Source of the DNA: Corynebacterium resistens DSM 45100
Lineage (GTDB): Bacteria > Actinomycetota > Actinomycetes > Mycobacteriales > Mycobacteriaceae
Reading direction: 5' to 3'
Length of the DNA stretch: 64,000 bases
NCBI RefSeq assembly: GCF_000177535.2
Contig: NC_015673.1
Span: 1,612,001 to 1,676,000, forward strand
The number at the start of each line of letters is the position of its first letter. The stretch's first letter is position 1. Both the position numbers and the translations under genes were made by a program. Shown here one piece after another: positions 9,570 to 33,927 of this stretch. The notes under the pieces were generated by a model. That model did not search any database. It was not told the origin of the DNA and was given only the letters and a program-made list of their open reading frames with translations.

Positions 9570-9614
9570 TTGGAGGTGCGGTTTCAGATCGTAAGGCGTA
9601 AAGAGAATGTTGGG

Positions 9615-9768: not shown

Positions 9769-9779
9769 TTTATGATTTG

Positions 9780-9852: not shown

Positions 9853-9951
9853 ATTAGGACTGTGAAGCATGCACCTGAACCTGATTTAACCTAATAAACC
9901 AGTAAAATTTCTTGCCGGACTAGACGACAAGAATGGAAGCAATTTTCACTG

Positions 9952-10023: not shown

Positions 10024-10161
10024 ATCGTAAACGCTGGAAGCATATGATTCGGATGATGGAAACATCACCGGATACATTCCCTGCGCAACGAGAAACAATA
10101 TAACCAGACCTGCGCAGCGGAATCAAATCCGCTGGTCAGGAAGCTTTCCCTAGCCCAAGCG

Positions 10162-17323: not shown

Positions 17324-17851
17324 TGATGGACATTACGCACTCCCCCGGCTATGCCCCGCGTGGTTAATTCAATAGCGGGGGTCGGGGTGCTCCGGAGGGG
17401 GTTATAAGGAGCGCCCCACGACAACCTGAGGCAAGATTCAAAAGGGGGGCGAGTGGCGTCGCTAATAGAAGAACCTTGGCCCGAGGCATGGCCAAGGGGA
17501 AAGCGGCGCGCGAAGTGAACGCGCGTCACGCGGCGTTTTGGGGTGCCGCAGAGCGCGATTGCGAACCGCCTTGGTCACTTTCCGCCGATGATCACGAGGT
17601 TGCGCGCTCATGCGATGGAACACGCCACGTTGGTACTGACCGGGTGGGCCGCAATGCACGTGCTTGGGCTACCAGTGTTTTGCAATGAAATGCCTGTTGA
17701 GGTGGCCAGCCGTACGAACAAGCGGGCGACTTCGGTATACGCTGTGCTGCATGTGAAATACGAGGGGCGGAAACTTTCATGCCACGCTGGATACAAATGC
17801 GCGCGAACTACGATTTAGCCGCCTGACTGGTTCACTTCCAGCGAGCGAGGG

Positions 17852-18364
17852 TCATGGGCCGATCTTCCGGGAAACGAAGAGCTTACGGTAATGGGGATCC
17901 CCGTCTTTACGCGGGTAATAGTGCCAGCTAATTCCTGCCCAAAACTCGTCAGCGCCTTCGGAGAAGGCGATCAAGGGGTAACCTGCGTAGTGGCTGATCA
18001 GATGCCTTGCAAACTCAGCCCCATAGTGTTGTCGGCGAAGGTCATGGCGGATTTCAAAGAACCAGATCTCTTTGGTTGGCACCGTCGAGTCAACTCCGAT
18101 GTAGCTATCGGAGACCGGCCAATCTGTCACCTCAGCGCGCCCGACTTCCACACCATCGGCAAGAAACTGGATGTACTCCCTGCCGCCCAGGGCGTCGTCG
18201 CCGACTCGTCCAGCCATGCGGTGCCACCAGCGGTCATCGAATCCCTCGACCACCTGGAACGGCGTCACGTAGTCCTCAATTTGCTGAAGAACTCTCAGTT
18301 GTAAGCGATCCACCACTCCAAGACTACGCAAGCGCCCACCAGGTTCTGGCGGGCGCTTAGACAT
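17852..18364 (-). CDS. GNAT-like N-acetyltransferase domain protein
   Basis: A 170-residue protein starting at the ATG at 18364 (MSKRPPEPGGRL). The middle contains a strand-turn-helix, WFFEIRHDLRRQHYGAEFAR, in which RRQHYGAE resembles the acetyl-CoA-binding loop of GNAT enzymes. Trp/Tyr-rich segments (WHRMAG, WAGISWHYYPR) flank it. Codons upstream to 18442 are open but overlap the recombinase relic. There is no strong ribosome site, so the start is tentative. The substrate cannot be inferred. Confidence 0.5.
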   Translation of the reverse strand: MSKRPPEPGGRLRSLGVVDRLQLRVLQQIEDYVTPFQVVEGFDDRWWHRMAGRVGDDALGGREYIQFLADGVEVGRAEVTDWPVSDSYIGVDSTVPTKEIWFFEIRHDLRRQHYGAEFARHLISHYAGYPLIAFSEGADEFWAGISWHYYPRKDGDPHYRKLFVSRKIGP

Positions 18365-18374
18365 AGATACTGGG

Positions 18375-18800
18375 TTACTGTTTGATGGCGACTGCTTGGG
18401 TGCTGCCGTCGCGGAATTGAAAGGTGACATTGCCGTCGACATCGACGGTGCCTTTGTCGAGCAAAGCTACGCAGAGGTATGGGCTAAAAACCAACTGTTC
18501 AAGATCAAGGTTGGCTGTCTCCTGTCTGTAGTAGTGGTAGGCGGCTAGTCGGTTGTTCTTGTTTTGGATCTCGGCGATCACGGCAGCGTGCTCAGCTAAC
18601 AGCGCCTGGTGCTGTTCGTGGCTAGCGTTGAACGCCTTTTCGTAGGCTTGCTGGTCTTGAGCGACTCGTGCATTGTGGGCGATCATGACGCGAAATCCGG
18701 CGCGCACGAGGGCGCGGGCGGCGGCGAAACCGATGCCTTCGGCGGCGCCGGCGCCGGTGACGATGGCTACAGGGGAAGTGCTGCTTTGAATTGGCAGACT
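18375..18800 (-). pseudogene. Chimeric relic: SDR N-terminal fragment joined to serine-recombinase C-terminal fragment
   Basis: Read on the minus strand without a stop from about 18800, the frame opens with VAIVTGAGAAEGIGFAAARA, the cofactor loop (TGxGxxxGIG) of a short-chain dehydrogenase. Soon after the next beta strand it changes into a Gln/Ala-rich helix (residues like AYEKAFNASHEQHQALLAEH) and ends with VDVDGNVTFQFRDGST, the typical last strand pair of large serine recombinases. Neither part is complete and there is no proper start codon before the dehydrogenase motif. It looks like a deletion or integration joint, next to a damaged tRNA gene. The two family calls rest on motif recognition only. 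Confidence 0.5.
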
Positions 18801-18881
18801 TTATCGGGGCGTGTTGGATGCGCGCAGAGCTTCGCGAAATGGGGTAAAGCTATTGGAGTTGCCCGATGCAGTTCGGGACAG

Positions 18882-18956
<75 letters not shown>

Positions 18957-19020
18957 GAACGAAAAAAGCCGCCTGATGGCTGCTTTTGAACTGGCCCCCG
19001 AAAGTTGGACTGGTTTAATT

Positions 19021-19842
19021 CTAGGCGGTTAGGGCTTCAAGGGTCTGATTCCGATATTGCATCGGGGTCAGGCCCTTGAGTCGTTGTTGGACGCGTTCGG
19101 TGTTGTACCACCCGATGTATTCGTCGATCGCTTGGTTGAACTCTGCGACCGTGTCGAAGACTTCACCGTGGTACATCTCGGTTTTCAAGTGCCCGAAGAA
19201 GTTCTCCATGACCGCGTTGTCGTAACAGTTGGCTTTACGCGACATCGACTGCACACCACCGTTGTCACCGATCAGATCACGCCACGAGGCATGCTGGTAC
19301 TGGAAACCTTGGTCAGTGTGCATCATCCACCCGGGTTCAGGCGCACTCGCCGCGATCGCCTTGGACAAAGAATCGGTGGTCAACGCTGTCGACGGTGATG
19401 TAGCCACGGTGTGGGCGACGATTGAGCGGTCGAACAGGTCCATCACCGGCGACAAATACACTTTGCGGCCTTGGACCCTGAACTCGGTGACGTCGCTGAC
19501 AAAGACGGTGTTTGGCTGATCCGGGGTGAACTTGCGGTCAAGTTTGTTGTCAGCGATGTGGCTGATCGTCCCAGCATAGGAAACATAAGGTCTGCGCTGG
19601 CGAATCTTAGCTCGCAGACCCATCTCGTGCATGAGTTTGTAGACGAGTTTGTGGTTGACCACCCACCCCTGGTTACGCAGGTCAAGTAGCACTCGCCGGT
19701 AACCAAAGCGATGCTTGTTACGTTCAAAACTTGCCCGGATCGCGTCTTTGAGCTCGGCGTGCTTATCTGACTGGCCGAGACGTTTCTGGTGGTAGAAGAA
19801 CGTCGACCGTGGGATACCTGCTGCCTCTAGGAGGTACTCCAA
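19021..19842 (-). CDS. IS3-family transposase OrfB (integrase domain)
   Basis: The 273 residues shown start at the first Met, but the frame continues upstream to the slippage site, so the protein is probably made as an OrfAB fusion. An N-terminal HTH-like part (IPRSTFFYHQKRL) is followed by the rve integrase core with D in VSDVTEF, D in HTDQGFQY and E in MENFFGHLK, the DDE triad. The ending YNTERVQQRLKGLTPMQYR is typical for IS150/IS3 OrfB. It appears intact. Confidence 0.92.
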   Translation of the reverse strand: MEYLLEAAGIPRSTFFYHQKRLGQSDKHAELKDAIRASFERNKHRFGYRRVLLDLRNQGWVVNHKLVYKLMHEMGLRAKIRQRRPYVSYAGTISHIADNKLDRKFTPDQPNTVFVSDVTEFRVQGRKVYLSPVMDLFDRSIVAHTVATSPSTALTTDSLSKAIAASAPEPGWMMHTDQGFQYQHASWRDLIGDNGGVQSMSRKANCYDNAVMENFFGHLKTEMYHGEVFDTVAEFNQAIDEYIGWYNTERVQQRLKGLTPMQYRNQTLEALTA

Positions 19843-19880
19843 GCGGTGGTGTGACTTGAGGATGACAATCGCCTGGACTT

Positions 19881-20363
19881 TCAGGCGCGTCCCTGATTCC
19901 TCAAGTCCCGCAATTTTTTTAAATAAGCGTTCTCCGCTTCCAACCGCGCGATCCGGCGCCGCAGCTTCTCCTCTTCGGTCAGCGGCTTTGGCACAGCCGA
20001 CCCTTTGGGTCTGCCCTTCGGCTTCGGTTTTAACGCCTCATCGCCACCTTTGCGCCGTTCCCAGGACCAACTAGTGACGAGCTGGTCTGACGACAGGCCA
20101 AACTCACGCGCAAGATCCATCTTTGTCTCGCCGGCAAGATAGCGTTGGACAACTTCCTTCTTGACCTCGAACGAGTACTGCTGCTTTGTCGGTTTCTCCA
20201 CAAGACATAGCCTGCCATGCAGCTTAAACCGACGACAGAGCATACGGGCGGCATACTTGGAGACACCAAGGGCATTGGCAGCGGCTGTATAACCCATGCC
20301 TTGCTCAAATAGTTCAACCAACTGCTCGCGCTGATGCTCACTTAGCGAACTTCGTGCTCTCAA
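19881..20363 (-). CDS. IS3-family transposase OrfA (HTH and leucine zipper)
   Basis: A 160-residue DNA-binding subunit with two helix-turn-helix units (AAANALGVSKYAARMLCRRF near 30-50; KMDLAREFGLSSDQLVTSW near 80-98), a basic GRPKGS segment and a leucine zipper at the end (LRRRIARLEAENAYLKKL). This double HTH is characteristic of the IS150 group. The frame ends shortly after the A7 run. Confidence 0.9.
   Translation of the reverse strand: MRARSSLSEHQREQLVELFEQGMGYTAAANALGVSKYAARMLCRRFKLHGRLCLVEKPTKQQYSFEVKKEVVQRYLAGETKMDLAREFGLSSDQLVTSWSWERRKGGDEALKPKPKGRPKGSAVPKPLTEEEKLRRRIARLEAENAYLKKLRDLRNQGRA
19914..19920 (-). promoter_or_regulatory. Programmed -1 frameshift site of the IS3 element
   Basis: An A7 run on the minus strand (TTATTTAAAAAAATTGCGG context). 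Slipping back one base turns AYLKKLRDL of OrfA into AYLKKIAGLEESG of the OrfB frame, giving the OrfAB transposase expected for the family. Confidence 0.8.
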
Positions 20364-20450
20364 TGAAAACTACTCCCCACTAGTCGGTAACTGATTTCTC
20401 AGTCCAACTAATGGGGAGCAGTTCACTCTGCGCAGGCTCAACGTCTAGCT

Positions 20451-20466
20451 CAAGGGACTTGACCCC
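20451..20466. repeat. Possible IS256-type end scar
   Basis: The 16 bases CAAGGGACTTGACCCC are identical, in the same orientation, to the right terminus of the IS256-like element at 28498-28513. They lie just before the iron operon, so the same terminal sequence occurs on both sides of it. Chance cannot be excluded. Confidence 0.4.
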
Positions 20467-20475
20467 GGTCGGGAG

Positions 20476-20494
20476 TTGGGTTAGGCTAACCTAA
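20476..20494 (+). promoter_or_regulatory. DtxR iron box
   Basis: TTGGGTTAGGCTAACCTAA matches the 19-bp DtxR/IdeR palindrome TTAGGTTAGGCTAACCTAA at 18 positions. It ends 17 bp before the GTG start at 20512 and overlaps the promoter region. This predicts repression when iron is plentiful and expression on iron starvation. Confidence 0.85.
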
Positions 20495-20511
20495 GTGAAA
20501 GGAGGTTTGCT

Positions 20512-21105
20512 GTGACAGACCGATCCGGTACAGTTCGACGCTCAGCTCGCGGGGGATTAACCGACTCAATTCTAGGTACCCGAAATCTCATGATGGTGGC
20601 CTCCCTGTCGGTGGTCGGCCTCATCATCCTCATCCCACTGAGCTACATCGCGCCGGCGGGTGCGGCTTCGCAGAGCGCAGTCTGGCTCGGGGTGTCCCTT
20701 CTCGGACTTTGGGTCATTCCCTACCTCCTTCCTCTGGCCGTTGTGCGAAGGCCGGGCGCTTCGCTGCTGGCCGCGCTGATCATCGGAGTTGTGAGCGTAT
20801 TTACTACTCCCACTGGGCCTGCCGCGATTGTCGGTAACGTCATTGGCGGGCTCCTGGTTGAGTTTCCCATGGCGTTGATGCTGTACCGGAAGTGGACGTG
20901 GTGGGCGTATCTGATCTCCGCCGCATTCTTCGGGGCATTTAACAGCCTGTTGTACCTCACGCTGCTCAAGCACGCGGTGGGAATCTCGGTATCGGGACTG
21001 ATCGTGCTGGTGGGAGTCACGTCGTCCGTCATTGGCGGTTTGGCCGTCGTCGGACTAACCCGTTTGCTCAACAATGCAGGCGTAGGCGTAGACCATCGTG
21101 AGTGA
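20512..21105 (+). CDS. ECF transporter S component (YkoE-like)
   Basis: A 197-residue integral membrane protein with about five to six helices. The GTG at 20512 has AAAGGAGG 6 nt upstream. The pattern of short loops, the FTTPTGPAAIVGNVIGGLLVE region and LYRKWTWWAYLISAAFFGAFNS resemble YkoE-type substrate-binding (S) subunits of energy-coupling-factor importers. It is first in a tightly packed operon under an iron box: its stop overlaps the start of the next gene by 8 bp. Known YkoE-type subunits are assigned to thiamin precursors, but the iron control here suggests a different cargo such as a metal chelate. The cargo is an inference. Confidence 0.75.
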   Translation: MTDRSGTVRRSARGGLTDSILGTRNLMMVASLSVVGLIILIPLSYIAPAGAASQSAVWLGVSLLGLWVIPYLLPLAVVRRPGASLLAALIIGVVSVFTTPTGPAAIVGNVIGGLLVEFPMALMLYRKWTWWAYLISAAFFGAFNSLLYLTLLKHAVGISVSGLIVLVGVTSSVIGGLAVVGLTRLLNNAGVGVDHRE

Positions 21106-23425
21106 AAGGCTGGCCTCCACTTTGAGCAGCGAGCAACGGTCTGTGAGCGAGTCCGCGCGGGCGCTCCTGGCGGTTGAGGATCTTTCCGTTCACTACTTGG
21201 GTCAGGACCGGTGGGTGCTGCAACGTCCAAGCCTGGTCCACCTGAGCGGTCAGGTAACGGCCGTCATTGGGCCCTCTGGATGCGGTAAAACTACCTTCGT
21301 CCGAGCCGTGTGCGGCCTTGTGCCCCACTGTCTGCCGTCCGAATACTCCGGCAGCGTTCAAATTGCCGGCGCCGAAATCGCCGACGCCACGGTCCAGTTG
21401 ATCGCTACCAATGTCGCCTACGTGGGACAAAATCCGGATGCCGCAGTCATTACCCGTACGGTGTATGACGATGTCGCGTTTGCGCTGCAGAACCTCTGCC
21501 TGCCTGTTCCTGAGATTGATCGACGGGTACGCGAGGCATTGGCTGCGGTTGGTCTGGAGACCAAGCTGTGGGAGAGCCCATGGAGATTATCGGGCGGCCA
21601 ACGCCAGCGCCTAGCGATCGCGGTAGCACTGGCTATGCAGCCCCGCTTACTTGTCCTCGATGAGCCAACATCGACTATTGACACGCAAGGCACGGACGAG
21701 TTTTACAGCGTCATCCAACAGCTGGTTAGCGATGGCGTGGGCATCGTGGTGATCGACCATGACCTCGACCCGGTCCTACCCCTGTGCGATCACGTCATAG
21801 CGCTCAACGCGCAGGGCGCGGTGATCGCGCAGGGAACTCCACATGAGGTTTTTCTCAGCCATACCGCGGAACTTGAGGCGTGCGGAGTGTGGCTGCCCCG
21901 TGCGTTACGCGACGAATCCCCGCACCACGCCTTGACCTGCGAGCAGGCGGGCATTCGAGTTCCCCGCATCACGGATATCTGTGGTGATTCGGTGCAATAT
22001 CAGCGGCGCACCGAAGCAGGATGGGAAACCATCGATGCGATTGACACGCTCGACGGTGGAGGCAGCGCCACGGTAGAGCTGGCAGATTTCTGTGTTCCCG
22101 GACGTTCCCCAGCTATCTCTATGCGGCTACGGGGTGGCGAGTTTATCGCGCTTATAGGGCCGAATGGCGCAGGCAAAACATCCCTGCTCGCGGCGCTGGC
22201 GGGTCTCATACCATCAAAGGCACAACGCGCTACGGTCTGCGGAGAGGTTGTGCGGCGAGGGCGGCACCAGGTCGGCTACGTGTTTCAAAACCCGGAACAT
22301 CAGATGGTTTGTTCCACCGTGGCTGGCGAAATCTCCACGGGGGATGTTTCCGCGTCTAAAGCCGAGGCTATTGTGGAGCAATTCCATCTCTCCCAGTATC
22401 GAGACCAACACCCGTTGACTCTCTCAGGCGGCCAGATTCGTAGACTATCGGTGGCTACGATGGTCGCCGAGAGCCGCGATGTGATTGTCCTTGACGAGCC
22501 CACGTACGGCCAGGACTGGGCGAATACCTGCGAACTCATGGCCTTCATCGACGAACTGCGCGCTGAGGGCAGAACCGTCATCATGGCCACCCACGACCTA
22601 GAACTTGCCCTATCACGCTGCAGCCACATCATCGCGCTACCTGCTGCCGTTAGCGAAACTCGTGAAAACGCCGCATCCGCAGCACCAGCGAACCCGCCTT
22701 CGCCGTCCGTGCCCCGTGGACTCTTCTCATCGTTCAATCCTGTGACGTTGCTATTGGCGCTAATCCCGGCGATGGTCATGGTGTTCGTATGCAAGGACCC
22801 GGCCGTCAATGTTGGAGTGCTCATCGCAGCGAGCCTGGCCATGGTAGCCGCGAGAGCGAGTCGCGCTCGAACGGTCATGTCACTGCTAGCACCCTGGGTC
22901 ATCGCAGCTGTGCTACTGCCGGTGTTCCGCTACAACTACACCATTGAAGAGGTCAGCCCACTCTACAATCACGGTGGCGAGCTTGCCGCAGCGAGCGGTA
23001 TCGGGGCACTGTTGTCCCTCATGCTGCTTTCAGGCATCAGCACTCATCCGGAAGCGCTGCTTCGCACGTTGACGACGACGTTCAAGCTTCCCTATCGGGT
23101 CACTGCGGCGGGAACTGCGGCTGTCGCCTTCGTCACTCGTTTCCGGCAAGATTTCCAGCTGTTGCGCACAGCGCGGGCATTGCGGGGTATTGGGGCATCA
23201 TGGGGGCCGTTAGCGCCCGCAATTCGATGGGTGGGTTCCCTCGTGCCGCTGGCGATCCTCGCCGTCCAGCACGGCGAACGGGTTGCCCTGTCGATGGATT
23301 CACGTGGCTTTGGCGCCTATCCGCGGCGCACGGAACTCCAACACACACCGTGGCAGGTGCGAGATTGGTGCCTGGTGGGCCTCCTTTGGGCCGTTACTGC
23401 GTTGCTGTGGTGGTGGCGCCAATGA
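21098..23425 (+). CDS. ECF transporter fusion: two ABC ATPases plus transmembrane T component
   Basis: A 775-residue fusion. ATPase domain 1 has Walker A GPSGCGKTT (58-66) and LSGGQRQRLAIAVALA with LVLDEPTSTID. ATPase domain 2 has GPNGAGKTS (from about 354) and LSGGQIRRLS with VLDEPTYGQD. From about residue 545 a CbiQ-like T domain follows with several helices and the coupling motifs ARALRGIG and SMDSRGFG. Usually these are two or three separate proteins (YkoD and YkoC type); here one chain carries the whole energising module, to pair with the S subunit encoded upstream. The stop overlaps the next start (ATGA). Confidence 0.88.
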   Translation: MSERLASTLSSEQRSVSESARALLAVEDLSVHYLGQDRWVLQRPSLVHLSGQVTAVIGPSGCGKTTFVRAVCGLVPHCLPSEYSGSVQIAGAEIADATVQLIATNVAYVGQNPDAAVITRTVYDDVAFALQNLCLPVPEIDRRVREALAAVGLETKLWESPWRLSGGQRQRLAIAVALAMQPRLLVLDEPTSTIDTQGTDEFYSVIQQLVSDGVGIVVIDHDLDPVLPLCDHVIALNAQGAVIAQGTPHEVFLSHTAELEACGVWLPRALRDESPHHALTCEQAGIRVPRITDICGDSVQYQRRTEAGWETIDAIDTLDGGGSATVELADFCVPGRSPAISMRLRGGEFIALIGPNGAGKTSLLAALAGLIPSKAQRATVCGEVVRRGRHQVGYVFQNPEHQMVCSTVAGEISTGDVSASKAEAIVEQFHLSQYRDQHPLTLSGGQIRRLSVATMVAESRDVIVLDEPTYGQDWANTCELMAFIDELRAEGRTVIMATHDLELALSRCSHIIALPAAVSETRENAASAAPANPPSPSVPRGLFSSFNPVTLLLALIPAMVMVFVCKDPAVNVGVLIAASLAMVAARASRARTVMSLLAPWVIAAVLLPVFRYNYTIEEVSPLYNHGGELAAASGIGALLSLMLLSGISTHPEALLRTLTTTFKLPYRVTAAGTAAVAFVTRFRQDFQLLRTARALRGIGASWGPLAPAIRWVGSLVPLAILAVQHGERVALSMDSRGFGAYPRRTELQHTPWQVRDWCLVGLLWAVTALLWWWRQ

Positions 23426-25203
23426 ACGTTTCGAAAGACTCGACTCGACAGGAGCCCGATGTGAGTATTTCCGTCGCCGCACTAATCCGCCCGGCCAAGG
23501 GCGCGATGGTCCTTTCCGCAGTCCTCACAGCCTTAGGCGCTATCGTCACGCTGGTGCCGTTCGTCGCCTTACACAACATGGCCGCGATCTGGCTTGACGG
23601 GCAGGTGCGCACCGGCTGGACCGGAAAGCCGTGGGTTTGGGCCGTGATAGCGGTGCTTTCGCTGTTCGTGGGCCAATTGCTCTACCTGTTTGGATTGGGT
23701 GTCACCCACGAGGCAGAAGCCAAGCTCCGACATCGGTTGCGCGGCAATGTGGTCCAAGCGCTGGGCAGTTTGCCCTTGGGTAGGGTCTCGCAGGTGCCGC
23801 ACGGGGCCATCCGCAAGATGGTGTGTGACGATACCGCAGCCATCCATACTCTCGTTGCGCATGTTCCCGGTGATGTCACCAACGCCGTGGTCTCGATGGT
23901 CGTAGGCCTCGGGTATCTCGTGTGGGTCGATTGGCGACTGGCGCTCGCGCTCTTTGGAACGTGGGCCGTAGCGATCATGATCATCGTCAGCACGACCATG
24001 CGCGGCTATAGCGATATCACCAAGCGATTCGGACATGCCCAGACCGCACTGGCCGCAGCCACCGTCGAAATGCTTGAGGGCATTAAGGAGATCAAGAATT
24101 TCCAGGCCACCGATGCGACCCGAACGCGCTTTAACGCCGCCCGCCAGCAATTTTCTGCCATCTCCTTCGACTGGGTTCGTCGCTCCGGCAGAGCGATTAG
24201 TCTGCTCGGTTCGCTACTGCGTCCAGCCACGGTCTTCGTCACGGTCGCGTTACTGGCGGCGCTATTCGTCGCACAGGATTGGAGCACGCTGTCGGCGACG
24301 CTGCCATTCTTCCTGATCGCTCCCGGTATCCCGGAGGGGTTCACGGTGCTAGTCGGTCTGATGCAGCATATCTATGAGTCGCAGCTGGCGGCTCGCACCA
24401 CGGCAGAGCTGCTTTCCGAGAAACCCATGCCCGAAGGCAGCCGCACCCAAGAAGAGGGCCCAAACCCCGGCCAAGTTGAGGTCTGTGAGGTTTCCTTCTC
24501 CTACGAGCCTGACGTGCCCGTTGTGCACGGTGTCTCCTTTACGGCTGAGCCCGGAACGGTCACGGCTCTGGTGGGCCCGTCGGGCGGAGGGAAGTCCACA
24601 CTGGCCCGGCTGATTGCGCGCTTTTACGACGTCAATGATGGCGTGGTACGCATCAGCGGTGTGGATGTGCGCGAGGCGAGTTTTTCGTGGCTACTTTCCC
24701 GCGTCGCGATCGTCCTACAGGACGTAACGTTGTCGAACGATTCGGTCCATACCAATATCGCGCTGTCGAAACCGTCGGCAACGCGCGCCGAGGTCGAGGC
24801 AGCAGCCCGTGCGGCATGCATCCACGATCGCATTATGCGTCTGCCCGAGGGGTATGACACCGTGCTTGGCGAGGTTGGTGGCTTCCTCTCGGGCGGTGAG
24901 CGGCAACGCATCACCCTGGCGCGAGCATACTTGCAGGATGCGCCGATCTTGATTCTCGACGAGGCCACCGCGCAAGCAGACCCCCAGTCGGAGCGTGCGA
25001 TCCACGAAGCGCTCAGCACCTTGGCATCCGGGCGCACGGTGATCATCATCGCGCATCGACTCGCCACCATCCGAGACGCCGACCAGATCCTCGTGATTGA
25101 GGACGGCCACATCACTCAGCGTGGTAGGCACGAGGACTTGGTCAACCAAGCGGGGACCTATAGCGAGATGTGGCGGGCCCAAGAACTCCATTACATGGCC
25201 TAA
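23422..25203 (+). CDS. Exporter-fold ABC half-transporter 1 (YbtP/IrtA-like)
   Basis: A 593-residue protein with an N-terminal six-helix ABC-transporter domain (about 20-330) and a C-terminal ATPase: Walker A GPSGGGKST (about 384-392), signature LSGGERQRITLARA, Walker B ILILDEATAQAD, and H-loop IIAHRL. The ATG at 23422 overlaps the stop of the fusion gene. Its partner is the next gene, so a heterodimer is likely. Exporter-fold pairs under iron control include YbtP/YbtQ and IrtA/IrtB, which import ferric siderophores; there is no SIP-type reductase domain as in IrtA. Import of a siderophore is inferred from regulation and gene company. Confidence 0.85.
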   Translation: MNVSKDSTRQEPDVSISVAALIRPAKGAMVLSAVLTALGAIVTLVPFVALHNMAAIWLDGQVRTGWTGKPWVWAVIAVLSLFVGQLLYLFGLGVTHEAEAKLRHRLRGNVVQALGSLPLGRVSQVPHGAIRKMVCDDTAAIHTLVAHVPGDVTNAVVSMVVGLGYLVWVDWRLALALFGTWAVAIMIIVSTTMRGYSDITKRFGHAQTALAAATVEMLEGIKEIKNFQATDATRTRFNAARQQFSAISFDWVRRSGRAISLLGSLLRPATVFVTVALLAALFVAQDWSTLSATLPFFLIAPGIPEGFTVLVGLMQHIYESQLAARTTAELLSEKPMPEGSRTQEEGPNPGQVEVCEVSFSYEPDVPVVHGVSFTAEPGTVTALVGPSGGGKSTLARLIARFYDVNDGVVRISGVDVREASFSWLLSRVAIVLQDVTLSNDSVHTNIALSKPSATRAEVEAAARAACIHDRIMRLPEGYDTVLGEVGGFLSGGERQRITLARAYLQDAPILILDEATAQADPQSERAIHEALSTLASGRTVIIIAHRLATIRDADQILVIEDGHITQRGRHEDLVNQAGTYSEMWRAQELHYMA

Positions 25204-25217
25204 GGAGAGACACGCTC

Positions 25218-26960
25218 ATGTGGAAACTAATGATCAGGGTCGTCAACAGGGCCGAGTTGCGTACGTTGGTGGGCTGGTTCGCCTTCTCCGCTGTCCTACA
25301 AGGCATCACACTGGCGTTGATGATCCCATTCCTTCGGGCATTATTCTCCCGCTCTGAAACCCTTGGCACCTGGCTCGTCGTCGTTGCCATCCTCGGCGCG
25401 ATCACGGTGACGGTCGACACCTTCGCGATGTACCGCTCCTATCGGATCAGCGTCTATGAAGTATGCGATACCTTAATTGATCGCGTAGCAGATCATGTCT
25501 TGCAGCTGCCGCTTGGGTGGTTTAATGCCAAACGCGAAGCGGACGTGGCTAATGCGACATCCAAGGAGATCAACACCCTGTCGCATCTGGCATCAATGGT
25601 GATCCCGAACCTGTGCAACGCCTTCATCGTGCCGTTGGTGATGCTCGTTGCCACCGCATTCATTGAGTGGCCGTTAGCTGTGGTCATGGCAGTGTCGATC
25701 TTGCCGTTTATTCTCACGTGGCGGAAAATGTCGGCGGCAACAACCAGAGCCAATGACATGGAAGACCGTACCTCGTCCGCCGCAGCCGGCCGGTTGATTG
25801 AGTTCGCCAGGCTACAACCGGTGCTTCGAGCCACGGGTGCCGCGACGTCGTGGGACCCCGTACAAGAGACTCTGCAAGCCGACTCTGAGGCGACGTTGGC
25901 CGGGCTTCGGATCAAGGGCCGACCTGCCCAAGGATTCAACCTCATCGCTAACGTGACTTTCGCGGTGGTGCTCGCCTTGGGGCTGTCGTTCGTGACCGGA
26001 GCGCGTCTGGACCCGATTGCGTATCTGGTGATCGCGGCGGTCAGTGCGCGCATGCTGCTGCCGCTCACAAAAGCCGCGCTCTACGCATCTGAGGTCGATA
26101 ACGCCGCAGTAGCGTTGCGCCAGATGGGAATAATCCTTGATGCCGCGCCACTTGCCGAACCTGATTCCGAGCAGGCACGGGAACCGCGTGGGACGTCGAT
26201 TGAATTCCGAGGAGTGTCGTTTTCCTACGAGTCAGGCCGGCCTGTCCTAGACGATGTCTCGCTCACCGCCCCGCAGGGAGCAGTCACCGCACTAGTGGGG
26301 CCGTCAGGGGCCGGGAAGTCGACGATCTTGCGTCTCACCGCAAGGTTTTGGGATGTCGACGCCGGTAGCGTGACCATCGGCGGGGTGGACGTGCGCGAGA
26401 TTCCAACCACGCGGATCATGGAGCTGACCTCGATGGTGTTCCAGGACACCTACCTGTTTGACACCACGATCCGGGAGAATCTGCGGATTGCCCGTCCCAA
26501 TGCGACGAATGCCGAGTTGGAAGAAGCAGCTCGCAAGGCGAGACTTGATCGGGTGATTGAGGCGCTGCCTCACGGTTGGGATACCGAAGTGGGGCCTGCC
26601 GGGCAGAGCCTGTCTGGAGGTGAGCGCCAACGAGTGGCGATCGCTCGGGCATTCATCAAGGATGCTCCGATACTGCTGCTCGACGAGATTACCTCGGCGC
26701 TGGACGGCGAGAATGAATCGGCGATTAGCGACGTCATCAGTCAACTATCTGAGGGCCGCACTGTGATCGTGGTAGCGCACAGACTATCCACCATAGATAG
26801 CGCCGATCAGGTGGTCTTCCTCGAACCCTTAGCGGACGGTGCTATCGTCGCCGAAACCGGCACGCCTAAGGAATTGTCTAGTCGGCCCGGACGGTTCCAC
26901 GATTTCGTGGCTGCCGCCGATGCGTCGTCTCGTTGGCAGCTGAGACACACCTCAGATTAG
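25218..26960 (+). CDS. Exporter-fold ABC half-transporter 2 (YbtQ/IrtB-like)
   Basis: A 581-residue half-transporter. The ATG at 25218 follows AAGGAGAG. The membrane domain spans about residues 10-310; the ATPase has Walker A GPSGAGKST (about 361-369), signature LSGGERQRVAIARAF, Walker B ILLLDEITSALD and H-loop VVAHRLS. The spacing to the previous gene is 14 bp. It ends the iron-regulated operon. Beyond it are a small reading-frame relic and an IS256-family element, so the operon may once have been longer. Confidence 0.85.
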   Translation: MWKLMIRVVNRAELRTLVGWFAFSAVLQGITLALMIPFLRALFSRSETLGTWLVVVAILGAITVTVDTFAMYRSYRISVYEVCDTLIDRVADHVLQLPLGWFNAKREADVANATSKEINTLSHLASMVIPNLCNAFIVPLVMLVATAFIEWPLAVVMAVSILPFILTWRKMSAATTRANDMEDRTSSAAAGRLIEFARLQPVLRATGAATSWDPVQETLQADSEATLAGLRIKGRPAQGFNLIANVTFAVVLALGLSFVTGARLDPIAYLVIAAVSARMLLPLTKAALYASEVDNAAVALRQMGIILDAAPLAEPDSEQAREPRGTSIEFRGVSFSYESGRPVLDDVSLTAPQGAVTALVGPSGAGKSTILRLTARFWDVDAGSVTIGGVDVREIPTTRIMELTSMVFQDTYLFDTTIRENLRIARPNATNAELEEAARKARLDRVIEALPHGWDTEVGPAGQSLSGGERQRVAIARAFIKDAPILLLDEITSALDGENESAISDVISQLSEGRTVIVVAHRLSTIDSADQVVFLEPLADGAIVAETGTPKELSSRPGRFHDFVAAADASSRWQLRHTSD

Positions 26961-27129
26961 CGGACACGGTCCCGGTGCCAGGCGCCAAGCCCTAAACCCA
27001 CAGCTCGAATCGGAGTACCTCGACGCGTTTGGCACACGTGGTGCTGTCGCGAACATGGCGCTAGTGGGATCATTTGCGAACAGCATCTCGCTGATGAGCG
27101 AGGGCGCTACTAATCACCAAGGGAGTTGA
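26944..27129 (+). pseudogene. Short reading-frame relic cut by the IS256-like element
   Basis: An open stretch of about 60 codons with no start codon. It includes ALNPQLESEYLDAFGTRGAV and ends inside the left terminus of the insertion sequence. The composition looks protein-like, with a small hydrophobic stretch ANMALVGSFANSISLM. I do not recognise it. It may be the remains of a fifth gene of the iron operon. Confidence 0.3.
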
Positions 27130-28514
27130 GTCCCTCATAGTGGTGTAGCGGGGTGGTCGTGCTGGACAGCAGGGCGGTCACCGTGTGATCCTCGAGTTTC
27201 GTCCCCTACAACTCACTCGCGAAAGGCCACACGATGACCGCTACCCATATTGTCGACCCTGCCGGGCTGCTTGGCGAACTGCTTGCCGAGGCGTCACCTG
27301 TTGCAGACTGTGATCAACGAGTTGCTGTCTGCGGATACTGATGCGGTTGCAGGTGCCGAGTACGGCCGCCCAGATCCTGACCGACGTGCCCAGCGCAACG
27401 GCTACCGCCACCGGCCTCTCGATACCCGTGTTGGGACCTTGGACATCGCGGTCCCGAAACTACGCCAGGGCACCTATTTCCCTGAGTGGCTGCTGGAGCG
27501 TCGCAAGCGCGCCGAGTCCGCATTGATCACTGTTGTTGCCGACTGCTATCTCGCTGGAGTCAGTACTCGCCGGATGGACAAGTTGGTCAAGACGTTGGGA
27601 ATCGACCGGCTGTCGAAGTCCCAGGTCTCTCGCATGGCCGCCGAGTTGGACGAGCACGTCGCCGAGTTTCGACACCGTCCACTAGGCGATGCTGGGCCGT
27701 TCACGTTCGTGACCGCCGACGCGTTGACGATGAAAGTTCGCGAGGGAGGTCGTGTGGTCAACGCGGTCGTCATGCTCGCGACCGGGGTCAACGCCGACGG
27801 GCATCGCGAAGTCTTAGGGATGCGGGTCGCCACGAGCGAGACCGGCCCGGCCTGGAACAAGTTTTTCGCCGATCCGGTCGCCCGAGGACTGTCCGGGGTC
27901 CGGCTGGTCACCTCCGACGCCCACCAAGGCATCGTGGAAGCGATCGCGGCGAACCTGCCCGGTGCCGTCTGGCAGCGTTGCCGCACTCACTACGCCGCGA
28001 ACCTGATGAGCATCACTCCCAAGAGCTTGTGGCCGGCGGTCAAGGCCATGCTCCACTCCGTCTATGACCAGCCTGACGCCGATGCTGTTCACGCCCAGTT
28101 CGACCGGCTACTGGACTACACCGCCGAGAAACTCCCCGACGTCGCAGACCACCTCGATGCCGCCCGCGCTGACATTCTCGCGTTCACCAGCTTCCCGACC
28201 GAGGTCTGGCAGCAGATCTGGTCGAACAACCCCACCGAACGGCTGAACCGCGAGATCCGGCGCCGCACCGATGCGGTTGGGATCTTCCCAAACCGGGAAG
28301 CGATTGTCCGGCTCGTCGGCGCCGTCCTGGCCGAGCAAACCGATGAATGGGCAGAAGGCCGCCGCTACCTCGGCCTGGAAGTCCTCGCCAAGAGCCGCCT
28401 CAACCTGATCACCACACCCACAACCACGACCGATGCCGACATGCCCGCACTCGCAGGCTAAAACCCCAAACGAGAGGAAAACACCGTTACACCACTACAA
28501 GGGACTTGACCCCC
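27121..28514 (+). mobile_element. IS256-family insertion sequence, about 1,394 bp
   Basis: The ends are imperfect inverted repeats: GGGAGTTGAGTCCCTCATAG at the left and, on the other strand at the right, GGGGGTCAAGTCCCTTGTAG, both continuing TGGTGTA[GA]CGG. The single transposase gene fills the element. Flanks ATCACCAA and AACTTGCT are not duplicated. Confidence 0.85.
27234..28461 (+). pseudogene. IS256-family (mutator-type) transposase, frame broken near codon 24
   Basis: The natural start appears to be the ATG at 27234 ([20 protein letters not shown]), but the frame must shift by one near 27302, after EASP, to continue into [18 protein letters not shown] and the rest. A short deletion at CACCTG, where a few residues between EASP and HLLQ are expected, explains this. 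Downstream all motifs are intact: D in [10 protein letters not shown] in VTSDAHQGI and E in [11 protein letters not shown]. The part from about 27302 is 380 residues. Without the N-terminal part or a re-initiation it is probably inactive. Confidence 0.75.
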
Positions 28515-28828
28515 AACTTGCTAAAAGCTTTGTAGTTGACTAGGAGTGCAGATGGTCGTCGGCCCACCTGCAAGAACGAATAGCAAGCGGTATCGTCTAC
28601 AGGTAGTGGTGCTACCCGCATCATTTGTCGAGACCCCGCGTCTATTCTTGCGCGCGAGATCCCGACTGGTTCACCCCCTCTACGGACGCCAGCCGGGTAG
28701 CGACGTGCCAGATACTCAGCGGTACAGCAGGCTAATCTCCAAACGTCCGCGGCAGCCGGAAATCCCAGTTCATCGCCGGTATCGAAGCTGTTCGATGGCC
28801 CTGCTCCGCGCTGGGTCTTGTATCCATC
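28515..28828. other. Spacer after the IS256-like element
   Basis: No gene that I can support. The frame of the next gene is open upstream to about 28736 without a ribosome site, so that gene may have lost its original 5' end when the insertion sequence arrived. Confidence 0.4.
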
Positions 28829-29536
28829 GTGACCAGTTGTGCGATTCCACTAGCGGATCGGGCGCGATTTTCACCGAAGCATTTTGATCTTCCCGAGGAT
28901 GTGAAGGCTGTGTGCGCCGAGGAGGCGCTGGTGCGTTGCCTGATTTCACTGCTAAAGGGACGAAACGCTTGGGCGCTGCCGAGCGAGCGCGAGCTGTGCA
29001 AGGCCTGCGGGATGAGCGCCCTCGAAATTCGCGCGGTTCAACTGATCGACTCAACGCGCCGCCATGTAGGAGTGGAATTTAGCGTGGTCGAAAGGCTCGC
29101 GCAAAGGCGCTTAAGCAATCGAACCCTGAAGCGATTGTGGGCGCTGTCAGTACCGAACGCGGATTCGCCACCGGAAACCACGCTGCGCCTGTTGCTTCGC
29201 GACCTGCTGCCCGACATCAGAACTCAGGTCCCCGTGTATGTTTCGCCATCGTCGGCCTATGATCTCGCGGATGAAGCGAGATCCGTTTCGCGCCGTGCGC
29301 ACCGGAAACCTACCAAGGTCTTGACGCGCATCGATATCGCATCAAGGAAGTTGCGCATCGCGCTGTTCTACGACGGTGCTCACCATAACAGTCAGCGTCA
29401 GCGCGAACACGATGCCCAGGTGGACCGTGTTCTGCAAACGCGAGGGGCAACAGTATTGCGTTTTACAGCAGCGAGTATGCACGATCCCTTGATGGTACGG
29501 AAGCAAGTGCAGCAAGTAATTGCCCGGAACCGGTGA
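28829..29536 (+). CDS. DUF559/endonuclease-fold-like protein, possibly 5'-truncated
   Basis: A 235-residue protein whose C-terminal part (about 110-235) follows the plan of DUF559 proteins of the PD-(D/E)XK fold: SPPETTLRLLLRDLLP, then TRIDIASRKLRIALFYDGAH, then QREHDAQVDRVLQTRGATVL. The Glu of SPPET, the Asp of TRIDIA and the Asp of FYDGAHH fit the catalytic pattern. The N-terminal half resembles the variable region of corynebacterial DUF559 proteins. The GTG start at 28829 has no good ribosome site and the frame is open upstream. Function is unknown; such proteins are common in actinobacteria next to mobile DNA. Confidence 0.55.
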   Translation: MTSCAIPLADRARFSPKHFDLPEDVKAVCAEEALVRCLISLLKGRNAWALPSERELCKACGMSALEIRAVQLIDSTRRHVGVEFSVVERLAQRRLSNRTLKRLWALSVPNADSPPETTLRLLLRDLLPDIRTQVPVYVSPSSAYDLADEARSVSRRAHRKPTKVLTRIDIASRKLRIALFYDGAHHNSQRQREHDAQVDRVLQTRGATVLRFTAASMHDPLMVRKQVQQVIARNR

Positions 29537-29889: not shown

Positions 29890-31408
29890 AGCGGGTGGGG
29901 TCTAGTGGTGATTGCGACACCTTGATTTGTTTATGAGGTGTTGAATTGACCTATCTGCCTGATCCTGCTGTTGTTGCTGCTTTCGATCTGATTGCCACCT
30001 ACCGCTACAGCGTGCTGCGCGCGTGCCAGGCCACCGGATGTGCCGAGCGTGCGTTGCGGGACTACATCAAATCCCAAGGGGTGCGCCTTGCGCGGGGTCG
30101 TGGTGGTGGCCTTGCCACGTATAATGCGACTGCCCGGGTGATGGTGATGTTTTTGGCGTGCGCTGGGCGAAGTGATCACGATATCGCCGCTGTAACCGGT
30201 GTCCATCCGGCCACTGTGTACCGGTGGATACATAATTCTGGTATGCCTGTTTCCCGCCCACCGGTGACGTCGACGAGTAACCGTGATCAACCCATTGTGG
30301 TGTCCATAGACCCCGTGATGGTGAATTATCAACCTGCTACGGTCAAAGTCGGCCGGGGTATGCGGTTAACCGCGTTCGACCGGGTGTACATCAAGTTCTG
30401 TCTGGATCAGTCCTATTCCATCCGCCAGATTGGCCGGCAACTTGGCAGGCATCCCAGTGTCATCAGCCGCGAAATCACCCGCAACAGTCTCGACGGGGTG
30501 TATCACCCACTGATTGCCCAGCAACGCAGCATCGATGCGGCCAAACGCCCGAAAGCGCGCAAGCTTGATGCCAATCCCGTCTTGCGGCGTATGGTCATCC
30601 GACTGCTCAACCGGCAGGTCTCACCGAAACGTATTGTGGCGAGGCTGAAACGTTTATCCGGTATCCATAAGGAGTTGACCGTGTCCCACGAAACGATTTA
30701 CCAAGCTCTGTACGTTCAAGCAGCAGGCGCGCTACGCCATGAATTAACCGTTGATTACGCCTTACGATCAGGGCGTACGGGGCGACGACCCCGCTCGAAA
30801 TTACCGACGCGTGGACGCGGGGCGAAACCATGGGGTTCATGGTGCGGAGTATTCCACCCGTCCACCACAAGCAGCTGACCGGGCTGTCCCCCGGACATTG
30901 GGAAGGCGACCTCGTACTCGGCGCCCATGGCGGTAAACACGCGATCATCACCTTGATCGAACGACACAGCAGGTTGTTCATGGCGAGGTTGTTAACCACC
31001 GATCATTCCTCCCACACGGTAGTCACCGCGTTGAAAGATATGCTCGGGCAGATCAACCAGATGGCCACCAGCCCAGATCACCGGGTGAAAACTCTGACCT
31101 GGGACCAGGGCGCGGAAATGGCCACCAGCAGCCAACTGGCTGACCATATTGAGGGGTTAAAAACGTATTTCTGCGATCCGCACTCACCCTGGCAACGCCC
31201 CAGCAACGAAAACATCAACGCCGAGCTGCGCCGATTCATCCCCAAAGGAACTGACCTCACCACGGTGACCCACAAACAACTCCAGGAGTACGAAGACCTC
31301 ATCAACGACACCCCACGGGTGGTGTTAGATGGGCTGACCCCACGGGAAGTATTCTTTAACCTCGACCCATCCGAAAACGTTGCATTCACCGCCTGACCCC
31401 ACCACGCT
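29890..31408 (+). mobile_element. IS30-family insertion sequence, about 1.5 kb
   Basis: Imperfect terminal inverted repeats share GGTGGGGTC, then GGTGA and TGC at fixed spacing (left from about 29894; right, on the other strand, from about 31403). The element carries one transposase gene broken into three frames. It sits inside a copy of the dispersed hairpin repeat, whose arms flank it. The exact ends and the short target duplication typical of the family cannot be fixed by eye. Confidence 0.8.
29946..31396 (+). pseudogene. IS30-family transposase with two frameshifts
   Basis: The first 290 or so codons from 29946 encode an N-terminal HTH extension and the IS30 HTH region (SIRQIGRQLGRHPSVISREI). 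Near 30829 the homologous reading moves to the next frame (GAEYSTRPPQAADRAVP) and near 30891 to the third frame (GHWEGDLVLG onward). Each step equals one extra base in a run: G4 where G3 would fit, and C5 where C4 would fit. The catalytic residues in the last part are intact (D in WEGDLV, D in TWDQGAE, E near NENINAELRR). The gene is broken, unless the two runs are sequencing errors. Confidence 0.8.
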
Positions 31409-31438
31409 GGAACGGTCGTTTCGTTCTGCAAATCGAAC
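31409..31438. repeat. Right half of the hairpin repeat split by the IS30-like element
   Basis: AACGGTCGTTTCGTTCTGCA followed by AATCGAAC corresponds to the right arm AACGGTCATCTCATTCTGCA of the copies at 6892. Confidence 0.75.
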
Positions 31439-31595
31439 AGAGCGGTCCCCAAGGGGTGCGAAAGACATAACCAAATACGCCCCGAGGAACGCCAATACCG
31501 ACCGTCTGAAAACCTACTGGACAGTACTGTCTAGGACTAAGCATGCGCAATGCTTACTTGAACTAGACGTTCTCAGTGAGGAGAAGGAACGAAAA

Positions 31596-32552
31596 ATGGA
31601 CGAATCAACGAGATCTACGCAGGATTGCCCGCAACCTCCCTACACCCACGCCGACCCAACTTCCCCGCCGGCTCCTCACCGCGATTCGGACGCTACGAAT
31701 ACCCAGGTCAACGCAATGATCCATAACCGGAGCGGAAAAGAACCCCAACGCAAAGTTGCAGTCGTCACCGGCGCCGGATCCGGCTTAGGGAGACTCTTCT
31801 CCCAAGAACTGGCTAAAAAAGGGTGGTCAATTGTCGCCGTTGGTCGCACTCGCGAAACCCTAGAAGAGACGATCGCCACGCTTGACAGTGACACCTCGGT
31901 AGACAGTACCGCCACGTTTGACAGCGGCACCTCGTTCAACAACGGCAGCTCATCCGACAACACTGACACTCCAAGCACCCAGACAACTCCCCTTCACCTA
32001 CCGCTGGTGTGCGACATCGGGGACGAGATGGGCGTCATAAAAATGTTCGAACAAGCGACAGCAACCTTCGGCCGCCTAGACCTATTGGTCAACAACGCCG
32101 GCGCCCCTGGCCCCACCGGTGAAATCCACACGATCAACATCGACGACTTCGACCGCACCGTCCGCACCAACTTGCGCGGAGCGTTCCTGTGTACCCAGCG
32201 CGCGTTCGCATGGATGAAAGACCACGGCGGCGGACGAATCATCAACAACGGCTCGATCGCAGCCACTCGCCCACGCCCAGCAGCCGCCACCTACGCTGCA
32301 ACGAAAGCCGCGATCGCCAGCCTCACAGTCAGCACCAACCTCGACGGCCGCCCGTACAACATTCGCGCCACCGAGCTGGACATTGGTAATGCTCGCACGG
32401 ATCTTTTGGGTAGCTTCACTTCTTCTGAACCTATGTTTGACGCCACCCGCGCTGCCCAACTGCTCGCCTCAGTGGCGGAACTGCCACTGGATGTGTGCGT
32501 GGATCAGCTGACGATGACCGCAGCGGGCATGCCGTTCCTGGGGCGGGGTTAG
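31596..32552 (+). CDS. Short-chain dehydrogenase/reductase with low-complexity insert
   Basis: A 318-residue SDR. The ATG at 31596 follows GAGGAGAAGGA, so the longer upstream frame is ignored. After about 45 disordered residues come the cofactor loop VVTGAGSGLG, the NNAG motif, the Ser of NNGSIAA and the active-site YAATK. A Ser/Thr/Asp-rich insert of about 35 residues (SDTSVDSTATFDSGTSFNNG and on) separates beta strands 2 and 3 and is unusual for the family. NAD(P)-dependent oxidation or reduction of a hydroxyl or keto group is expected; the substrate is unknown. The gene stands alone in the + direction before the isochorismate synthase gene. Confidence 0.82.
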   Translation: MDESTRSTQDCPQPPYTHADPTSPPAPHRDSDATNTQVNAMIHNRSGKEPQRKVAVVTGAGSGLGRLFSQELAKKGWSIVAVGRTRETLEETIATLDSDTSVDSTATFDSGTSFNNGSSSDNTDTPSTQTTPLHLPLVCDIGDEMGVIKMFEQATATFGRLDLLVNNAGAPGPTGEIHTINIDDFDRTVRTNLRGAFLCTQRAFAWMKDHGGGRIINNGSIAATRPRPAAATYAATKAAIASLTVSTNLDGRPYNIRATELDIGNARTDLLGSFTSSEPMFDATRAAQLLASVAELPLDVCVDQLTMTAAGMPFLGRG

Positions 32553-32555
32553 GAG

Positions 32556-32683
32556 GCGGGCCGGGATGGGGTTAGGTGGTGGGGCAACGTTAAGGTTGAG
32601 GCAGCAGTCCGGGCACGAGGTTAGGCAGCGGGCCGGGATGAGGTTAGGTGGTGGGGCAACGTTAAGGTTGAGGCAGCAGTCCG
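32556..32683. repeat. 56-bp direct repeat, two copies at 72-bp spacing
   Basis: Copies at 32556-32611 and 32628-32683 differ at a single base (ATGGGG versus ATGAGG). The tandem array lies between the SDR stop and the isochorismate synthase promoter. Confidence 0.9.
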
Positions 32684-32775
32684 ATGGTGGTTGGAAAAAC
32701 GGTCCGAAGGCAAGGCGGAACTCAGCTCAGGCCTCCAAATCGGTTTTGCCGGACTCAATTAGTAGACTGAGCGAT

Positions 32776-33927
32776 ATGACTGCAGAGCACCAGAGACCGG
32801 CCACCGCCCCGGATTTTTTGCTCTCGCGTCCCCATAGCAGCATCCGGACGCAGGGTCGGAAGGCGACGTACCCGGATCCATTCGAAGCTGCTCAGGCGCT
32901 GCACGACGGGCAGGTGGACCTGCTTGTCGGCGCTATTCCGTTCAAGACCAGTTTCCGTGCAGCCTTATCGCAACCCGATTCGGTCATTGTCAGCGAAGGG
33001 CCGCTCGAGCCTCCCGCGTTCTTCCGTGGCCAAAATGCTGCCGACAAGCTGCGCGTGGAATCCATCTCCCCCGTCACCAGCCTCGAAGAACACAAAGCTG
33101 CGGTAGCTGCTGCTATAGCCACGATCCGCCAAACACGCCTTGAGAAAGTGGTTCTCGCGCGAGCAGTCGATGTCACGTTCGAGGACGAACCGGATCCGCT
33201 TCTCATTGCCGCGCGCCTGATCGACCTTTCTGCCAATCGCGACGGATTCGCGGTCGATCTGTCCGCGACTGGCCGCGATGAGGACCAGGGCGCCACGTTC
33301 GTGGGTTCTTCCCCTGAAATGCTGGTGCGCCGGGAAGGCCGTACGGTGACAGCATTCCCGCTCGCGGGTTCCACGCCGCGCACAGGTGTTGCCAGCATCG
33401 ATGACCAAGCAGCCCGCGATCTGCTGATGTCAGGCAAGAACCAGAGCGAACACAAGCTCGTGGTTGACCACTACCGCCATGTCTTGGAGCCACTTTGCGA
33501 CAACCTGGACATTCCTACTAAACCCGATATTCACGAGACCACCGAGGTCATTCACCTCGGCACTGCTATTCGTGGCGAGCTCAAGACCGATTGCGCACAC
33601 TACTCGGCTCTCGATCTTGCGTTAATGCTTCACCCCACGCCCGCCATCGGGGGCACTCCTACCGATGACGCCATCGGCATCATCGAAGAAGTTGAGCAAC
33701 CGCGGGAGTTTTATGCCGGCACCGTTGGTTGGTGTGATTCCGCCGGTGATGGTGAGTACATGGTCGCGATCCGCTGCTGCGTTATAGAGGGCGTGATGGC
33801 TCGGGCATGGGCCGGCGGTGGCATTGTGGCTGATTCGGATCCGGAGGAAGAGGCTGAGGAAACTACGGCGAAACTGCAGACGGCGCTGCGGGCACTGAAC
33901 GTGCCGGCAGCGATGCGCCACGTGTAA
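32776..33927 (+). CDS. menF: Isochorismate synthase
   Basis: A 383-residue chorismate-binding enzyme converting chorismate to isochorismate. Signatures are LEKVVLARAVDV (with the general-base Lys), FVGSSPEMLVRREG, FPLAGSTPRTG, HYRHVLEPLC, LHPTPAIGGTP and EFYAGTVGWCDSAGDGEYMV with WAGGGIVADSDPE. These match MenF/EntC/DhbC. The length is that of the EntC-like single-domain type. Menaquinone synthesis is the likely use, since no isochorismatase or NRPS gene is nearby. The ATG at 32776 has no ribosome site, but TAGACT lies 7 nt upstream, which suits a leaderless transcript; the frame upstream runs through the repeat and is not used. Confidence 0.9.
   Translation: MTAEHQRPATAPDFLLSRPHSSIRTQGRKATYPDPFEAAQALHDGQVDLLVGAIPFKTSFRAALSQPDSVIVSEGPLEPPAFFRGQNAADKLRVESISPVTSLEEHKAAVAAAIATIRQTRLEKVVLARAVDVTFEDEPDPLLIAARLIDLSANRDGFAVDLSATGRDEDQGATFVGSSPEMLVRREGRTVTAFPLAGSTPRTGVASIDDQAARDLLMSGKNQSEHKLVVDHYRHVLEPLCDNLDIPTKPDIHETTEVIHLGTAIRGELKTDCAHYSALDLALMLHPTPAIGGTPTDDAIGIIEEVEQPREFYAGTVGWCDSAGDGEYMVAIRCCVIEGVMARAWAGGGIVADSDPEEEAEETTAKLQTALRALNVPAAMRHV

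Follow-up and report, generated by a model that had tools for sequence, protein, structure and literature searches.

The window analysed here is a 64,000-nucleotide stretch of the Corynebacterium resistens DSM 45100 genome (contig NC_015673.1, positions 1,612,001 to 1,676,000, forward strand), and all coordinates given without a locus name refer to it. It contains an operon of four transporter genes behind a predicted iron box, and this operon rides as cargo on a mobile element of prophage origin, whose copies are about 99% identical across genera, a fact that is not visible from the window alone. Our preferred explanation, which we consider probable though well short of certain, is that the operon is iron-repressed and scavenges a foreign ferric chelate, and that it is carried as a passenger by a prophage, now grounded through internal deletion, whose insertion was the work of phage-type large serine recombinases. 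The transporter set belongs to a known kind of iron-chelate importer; the novelty lies in how the operon travels, in a methyltransferase motif I target found in three restriction-modification (RM) architectures, and in the import cargo. The portions of the literature covered by our search contain no description of the element, or of a DtxR-controlled set of energy-coupling factor (ECF) and YbtPQ-like genes that lacks synthesis genes.

Results

An iron box and four packed transporter genes

A predicted DtxR/IdeR-type operator on the forward strand (20476-20494) matches 18 of the 19 positions of what we take to be the DtxR consensus, in agreement with the preliminary description of this DNA. No other site in the window comes within three mismatches of the consensus, 100 shuffles gave none, and just one other site in the whole genome, at 1813150, has a single mismatch. 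The box is present in all six copies of the shared block described below, with scores of 18 or 19 of 19. A PF01325 repressor domain is encoded by all six host genomes but also by 13 of 14 control genomes, so its presence supports iron control weakly. No sigma-70-type promoter was found near the box by a scan that covers part of the promoter types, and a search of the window for riboswitches gave no match to any type.

Four genes on the forward strand follow the box, with overlaps of 8 bp and 4 bp and then a 14-bp gap. The first (20512-21105) encodes an ECF S subunit of 197 aa, which matches PF09819 (Pfam) and has the YkoE fold by fold comparison, placing it among ECF S subunits; its sequence match to YkoE is not significant (E = 0.068). 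The second (21098-23425) encodes a 775-aa ATPase-ATPase-T (A-A-T) fusion, in which Pfam recognises two ABC_tran domains and a CbiQ, or T, domain, so that both ATPases and the T part of an ECF module are present in one chain. The last two encode exporter-fold ATP-binding cassette (ABC) half-transporters, each with ABC_membrane and ABC_tran domains (Pfam): P (23422-25203; 593 aa), which is IrtA/YbtP-like, and Q (25218-26960, with an alternative start at 25170), which is YbtQ/IrtB-like. By score, the best half-transporter relatives of P are IrtA and YbtP and those of Q are YbtQ and IrtB; the two halves are thus different, and each is nearest its matching subunit. The N-terminal SIP domain of IrtA is absent from P, which aligns to the IrtA chain 6tej_A from residue 321 onward. 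Each of the four ATPase domains encoded by the operon retains intact Walker A, Walker B and signature motifs. Pfam, fold comparison and best scores therefore bear out the gene content proposed in the preliminary description, and the combination of ECF genes, an adjoining YbtPQ-like pair and a DtxR-type operator is that of the equibactin type.

Spread of the operon and selection on it

The operon lies within an 8.4-kb block (20426-28844) that is about 99% identical in five other species, the left border being at 20454 in two of them (L005 and L007). The block also holds an IS256-family (mutator) transposase gene (27250-28461, forward strand; Pfam). A scan of genome contigs returned 11 loci, five of which show 99-100% identity across the fusion protein. 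Their carriers, [Zimmermannella] alba (= Pseudoclavibacter albus), [Z.] bifida (= Gulosibacter bifidus), Gulosibacter hominis, Pseudoglutamicibacter albus and Brachybacterium timonense, represent four genera and three Micrococcales families (Microbacteriaceae, Micrococcaceae and Dermabacteraceae). Among 394 genomes of the class, the only near-identical copy found was that of C. resistens itself. Pairwise, the six copies differ by 52-71 substitutions per 8.4 kb, with the exception of the window and P. albus NBRC 15616 (L005), which differ by 19. The identity of these copies indicates that the block spread recently among distantly related actinobacteria; the element crosses genera and probably orders. 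Carriage of the block by plasmids was considered and rejected, as all 20 plasmid records match only insertion sequence (IS) parts or a tRNA-like stretch.

All four importer frames are full length in each of the five other copies. Taken together, and with codon differences counted as independent, the importer genes have accumulated 35 nonsynonymous and 40 synonymous differences, where neutrality would give a ratio of about 2.4 (binomial p = 2e-5), whereas the transposase shows 16 and 5 (p = 0.8), and the two ratios differ from each other (p = 0.025). These counts show that the importer genes have been under purifying selection across the copies and give no such sign for the linked transposase.

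Ends, contents and empty site of the element

The block is part of a prophage-derived integrative element of 11,073 bp (17772-28844), which is delimited by fixed ends and by an empty site. The left end reads GA|AACTTTCATG and the right end TTGTGCGA, with GA as the common core (attL core, 17770-17771; attR core, 28843-28844; both forward strand and assigned from the shared ends). Identical ends bound the elements of Pseudoglutamicibacter albus (10,164 bp), B. timonense (10,302 bp) and G. hominis (12,061 bp), and the window element has the same attachment ends as the prophage-like group described below; in L005 and L007 the left element ends lie past the contig ends. In a congener (G280) the flanks are contiguous, and 800 joined bases align through the junction at 74%. 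The gene at this empty site encodes a DUF559/DUF2726-type protein (weak Pfam matches), and on this ground we rejected the window flank as a methyltransferase; the site itself can be read as resembling motif I DNA.

Neither an intact integrase nor virion genes were found inside the window element, where the only trace is a C-terminal remnant of large serine recombinase a (18375-18740, reverse strand; 83% to copy c of L009). Most of the recombinase region has been replaced by an IS3-family insertion (18987-20425, reverse strand; Pfam). In G. hominis (L009), a full a-type recombinase (527 aa) and a 5'-truncated second recombinase of b type adjoin the operon, and the remainder of the 12 kb consists of the operon and IS. 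A 435-aa frame in L006 and L008 looks like a candidate ISL3-type transposase. The right end region of the window element (28514-28844, forward strand) is 95% identical to the G. hominis prophage-like element and partly, at 83%, to the one of C. resistens itself. Repeats of 13 bp bracket the operon and the IS256 element, yet the outer ends of the element are att sites, and a simple composite transposon was therefore rejected. A tRNA-like gene (18882-18956) also lies inside the element, and similar stretches occur on several actinobacterial plasmid records.

Insertion at methyltransferase motif I

At 12 of 13 sites examined, one flank or both carry part of an N6-adenine methyltransferase that is split at motif I. 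Pfam supports ten of these assignments, two (L115 and L117) come from the motif alone, and the count leaves out the right ends G761:C10:34459 and G921:2284. Related elements are inserted at the GA in the Asp codon of motif I (DPxxGxG), and their targets fall into three RM architectures, namely HsdM, MmeI-type and type ISP. Where both flanks are seen, the joined reading is ..YDPAVGSGS.. in HsdM of Pseudoglutamicibacter (L006), ..LDPACGCGN.. in the MmeI-type gene of B. timonense (L008), ..LDPFAGTGT.. in the type ISP gene of G. hominis (L009/L167), ..FDPACGSGG.. in the HsdM that holds the prophage-like element of C. resistens (L113/L168), and ..YDPTCGTGG.. in the HsdM that holds a second B. timonense element (L116). 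Single flanks are available at L005 (ISP), L007 (N6_Mtase), L118 and L037 (MmeI-type), L036 (HsdM), L115 and L117; for sites with the left flank only, the Asp is deduced from the remaining GA, and at L117, where the left flank is not recognisable, the right flank was used. The window copy is the one exception among the 13 sites.

Prophage-like relatives

Directly past the right end of the importer element, G. hominis carries a 52.2-kb element that has the same ends and a recombinase pair with frames of 528 and 497 aa. The importer element and this prophage-like element stand in tandem in one type ISP RM gene (L009; G763:C6, 27.4-91.7 kb). C. resistens has a prophage-like element of its own, 57.3 kb long and inserted in hsdM (G000:C1, 1831986-1889275; L113, L168, L170, L171), in which both frames of a large serine recombinase pair are open; one part of it, L113, has genes for a tape-measure protein and a prophage tail protein (Pfam). 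The equivalent genes of L114 share the order and the weak PADLOC matches of these genes and are close to them in size; by analogy they are putative tail genes. Defence cargo, to which the weak PADLOC matches in L113 and L114 might point, was rejected, as Pfam identifies the L113 proteins concerned as tail proteins. Near the right end of the 57-kb element (L168, about 8521-11468) there are two ABC half-transporter-like stretches, with 27-33% identity to P and Q.

Relatives of the two recombinases occur in 522 and 528 phage records, several of them near record ends, with best listed identities of 50 and 59%; identities above 60% were found in 3 records, for one of the two recombinases. Among IMG/VR loci with a recombinase relative, the attL region was matched in only 2 of 80 (L036 and L037), and patterns for attR and the left border gave no matches in IMG/VR.

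In the 52-kb element of G. hominis the right-end sequence is continuous, and the operon and the IS256-type element interrupt it, with matches around the interruption of just 31-38 bp on the left and of 333 bp at 95% on the right. In the simplest history, the right end of a prophage would have gained the operon together with the IS, the virion genes would have been lost afterwards, and decay of the recombinase region would have taken a different course from host to host. The ends of the element could still be acted on in trans by intact recombinase frames present in the same cell.

Related clusters

Relatives were compared by blastp against the open reading frames of the fetched loci. S, A-A-T, P and Q stand in identical order in Propionimicrobium lymphophilum (L010), Mobiluncus curtisii (L011) and Atopobium deltae (L012), with 44-67% identity overall and 51-67% for P and Q. 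A fourth locus, from Mobiluncus mulieris (L013), has S and A-A-T with no P/Q nearby. There, a longer A-A-T (993 aa) follows S (7190-10805), and tRNAs and a large surface-protein-like frame (DUF5979) come next. In L010 (4183-7963) a cobalamin riboswitch, an anaerobic ribonucleotide reductase pair and the S gene follow one another, and co-transcription is possible. A-A-T fusions with 56-61% identity appear among the best 120 matches listed, the few named ones being from Actinomyces.

The C. resistens genome holds two more clusters of ECF genes with P and Q, L031 (P, Q, S, T, A-A) and L032 (S, T, A-A, P, Q). Both have an S subunit of a different family (Trep_Strep, PF09605), and each cluster adjoins a DtxR-like box (15/19). 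L032 (G000:C1, 403766-410110) matches a cluster (L119) on the mobilizable plasmid pET44532 of Corynebacterium aurimucosum with 97.4% identity over 6.7 kb, and because of this identity between chromosome and plasmid it is probably mobile as well. Thus, the earlier statement that the set stands alone holds in that it is free of synthesis genes and of a SIP domain, but not in kind: a unique arrangement was rejected in view of L031, L032 and the diverged relatives L010-L012. No nonribosomal peptide synthetase (NRPS) Condensation domain was found in the whole genome, whereas 4 of 14 control genomes give matches. IucA/IucC domains in this genome sit 0.5 kb from another DtxR-like box.

Discussion

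Proposed function and known systems

What we infer about the operon extends to its iron response, its single message, its ligand and direction of transport, and the manner in which its DNA crossed genera. At low iron, a DtxR-family repressor would leave the box and the four genes would be transcribed as one message. S would then bind a ferric chelate not produced by the cell and A-A-T would drive it inward, as EqbHIJ does for equibactin, while a P-Q heterodimer would handle the same ligand, either as a second importer or as an exporter of the emptied chelator, the role suggested for EqbKL. The two roles of P-Q appear nearly balanced. We lean slightly towards import because IrtAB and YbtPQ, the nearest solved half-transporter relatives, are importers.

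Equibactin is the closest comparison, and it was rightly named in the preliminary description as a locus with both kinds of transporter, eqbHIJ and eqbKL (PMC3672683). In Streptococcus equi, eqbHIJ is needed for equibactin-dependent iron uptake (PMC3672683). As on ICESe2, an ECF-type importer and a YbtPQ-like pair are found here on a mobile element with a DtxR-type control site, there under a DtxR-like repressor (PMC3672683); unlike here, ICESe2 is conjugative and carries NRPS synthesis genes, whereas the present set is synthesis-free, has its A-A-T fused and rides on a prophage-derived element. A Clostridioides difficile island has a similar synthesis cluster with a nearby gene annotated as an ECF cobalt transporter (PMC6814731). 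P and Q resemble mycobacterial IrtAB and the yersiniabactin transporter YbtPQ in being heterodimeric exporter-fold halves that match the respective subunits, but the operon has neither a SIP reductase domain nor adjoining siderophore synthesis, and its pair is joined to an ECF module. S shares its fold with YkoE but lacks significant sequence similarity to it, and its operon has an iron box and no thiamin riboswitch. Serine integrases that disrupt hsdM are known from streptococcal Tn1549-type integrative and conjugative elements, which have serine-integrase triplets in that gene (PMC4701971, PMC7563491); in contrast, the elements described here are actinobacterial and prophage-like, or remnants of such, and HsdM, MmeI-type and type ISP genes are hit at the same motif I codon.

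Evidence against the proposed function

Several observations weigh against an iron-repressed chelate importer of phage descent. Genome-wide, the DtxR pattern with three or fewer mismatches finds 14 sites, compared with 17 for the reversed control. Among the four diverged relatives a clear box is present only in L011 (16/19, a score reached by 0 of 2000 control stretches from these loci); the scores of L010, L012 and L013 are 11, 13 and 14 of 19, and 54 of the 2000 control stretches reach 13, 14 reach 14 and none reaches 15. Because L010 has no box and the scores of L012 and L013 occur in controls, iron control appears well supported for the mobile copies and L011 and is not extended to the entire family. 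The L010 operon begins 55 bp past the nrdD/nrdG-type reductase pair, on the same strand and behind its cobalamin riboswitch, and M. mulieris has no P/Q within the 18.8 kb examined. The nearest fold to S is that of a hydroxymethylpyrimidine (HMP)/thiamin subunit. Among 38 IrtA-like loci (8-20 kb stretches from 31 other genomes of the 246 searched in the class sample, E of 1e-100 or better) none has an ECF T gene nearby, and ECF as a general partner of IrtA-like proteins was rejected; the count is uninformative on clusters such as L031 and L032 because the threshold misses them (2e-87 and 1e-91). No intact phage with the operon was found among IMG/VR contigs searched with six peptide patterns. 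Finally, deletion of the YbtPQ-like eqbKL in S. equi kept the iron phenotype, and the supernatant was twofold less active, for which the authors suggest efflux (PMC3672683); these genetics point to release of the chelator by P-Q. The self-contained chelate importer of the preliminary description therefore stands in part: iron-repressed chelate import is the best supported function, but the four genes as one importer are not secure because eqbKL is dispensable and possibly serves efflux.

Other ligands and functions

Heme, cobalt or cobalamin, and thiamin precursors are less likely ligands. The ECF module might bring in heme as does LhaSTA of Staphylococcus lugdunensis, an iron-regulated ECF transporter shown to use heme (PMC7299338), with P and Q exporting surplus heme or a thiol. 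However, LhaSTA consists of three genes, S, T and A (PMC7299338), the closest half-transporter relatives of P and Q are siderophore importers, and the element frames scanned include no heme-binding protein or heme oxygenase, so that we regard a heme importer as unlikely. Two unrelated halves, with the ECF module importing a nutrient and P/Q acting as a drug or peptide exporter, seem unlikely to the same degree. P and Q do belong to the exporter fold family, YbtPQ has been studied for its effect on antimicrobial susceptibility (PMC7876324), and the ECF part of M. mulieris lacks a nearby P/Q, but S-A-A-T is followed by P/Q in L010, L011 and L012, and in L031 and L032 ECF genes are again paired with P/Q, there with S of another family.

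An importer of cobalt or a cobalamin precursor, with P/Q as partner for the same corrinoid or metal chelate, is somewhat more doubtful still; it draws on the Pfam name of the S family, ABC_cobalt, and on the riboswitch-headed neighbours of L010, and some relatives of the operon may have such a role. Least probable, by a little, is a YkoE-like importer of thiamin precursors that merely came under an iron box: the weak sequence match of S to YkoE speaks against it, no thiamin pyrophosphate riboswitch was found in the window or in six other loci searched, and no thiamin gene was found among the neighbouring frames scanned, a scan outside which most of the window lies.

A possible phage family that targets restriction-modification genes

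If the operon scavenges a ferric chelate as proposed, the element links a probable iron-piracy operon to a phage-type vehicle that crosses genera and probably orders. A broader reading, which we hold tentatively and at slightly less than even likelihood, is that a temperate actinobacterial phage family is fixed, for its integration, on the DNA coding for catalytic motif I of N6-adenine methyltransferases, so that each lysogeny splits an RM gene of whichever type the host has, and that a derivative gained the operon, lost its virion genes and was kept and spread for the operon's sake, as lysogenic conversion by nutrient import. This raises the question of whether one integrase recognises the shared coding sequence of motif I and whether lysogeny hence routinely disables restriction-modification. 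As a minimal system without synthesis genes, the operon also lends itself to the question of why siderophore transporters of the exporter fold move together with ECF transporters.

Neighbouring genes

Outside the element and 5.6 kb downstream, an isochorismate synthase gene (32566-33924) scores above the TIGR00543 cut-off and below the DhbC equivalog cut-off. It adjoins a short-chain dehydrogenase/reductase (SDR) gene (31380-32549), and the two may be catechol or menaquinone genes. An SDR-like frame is also found near the empty site of the congener.

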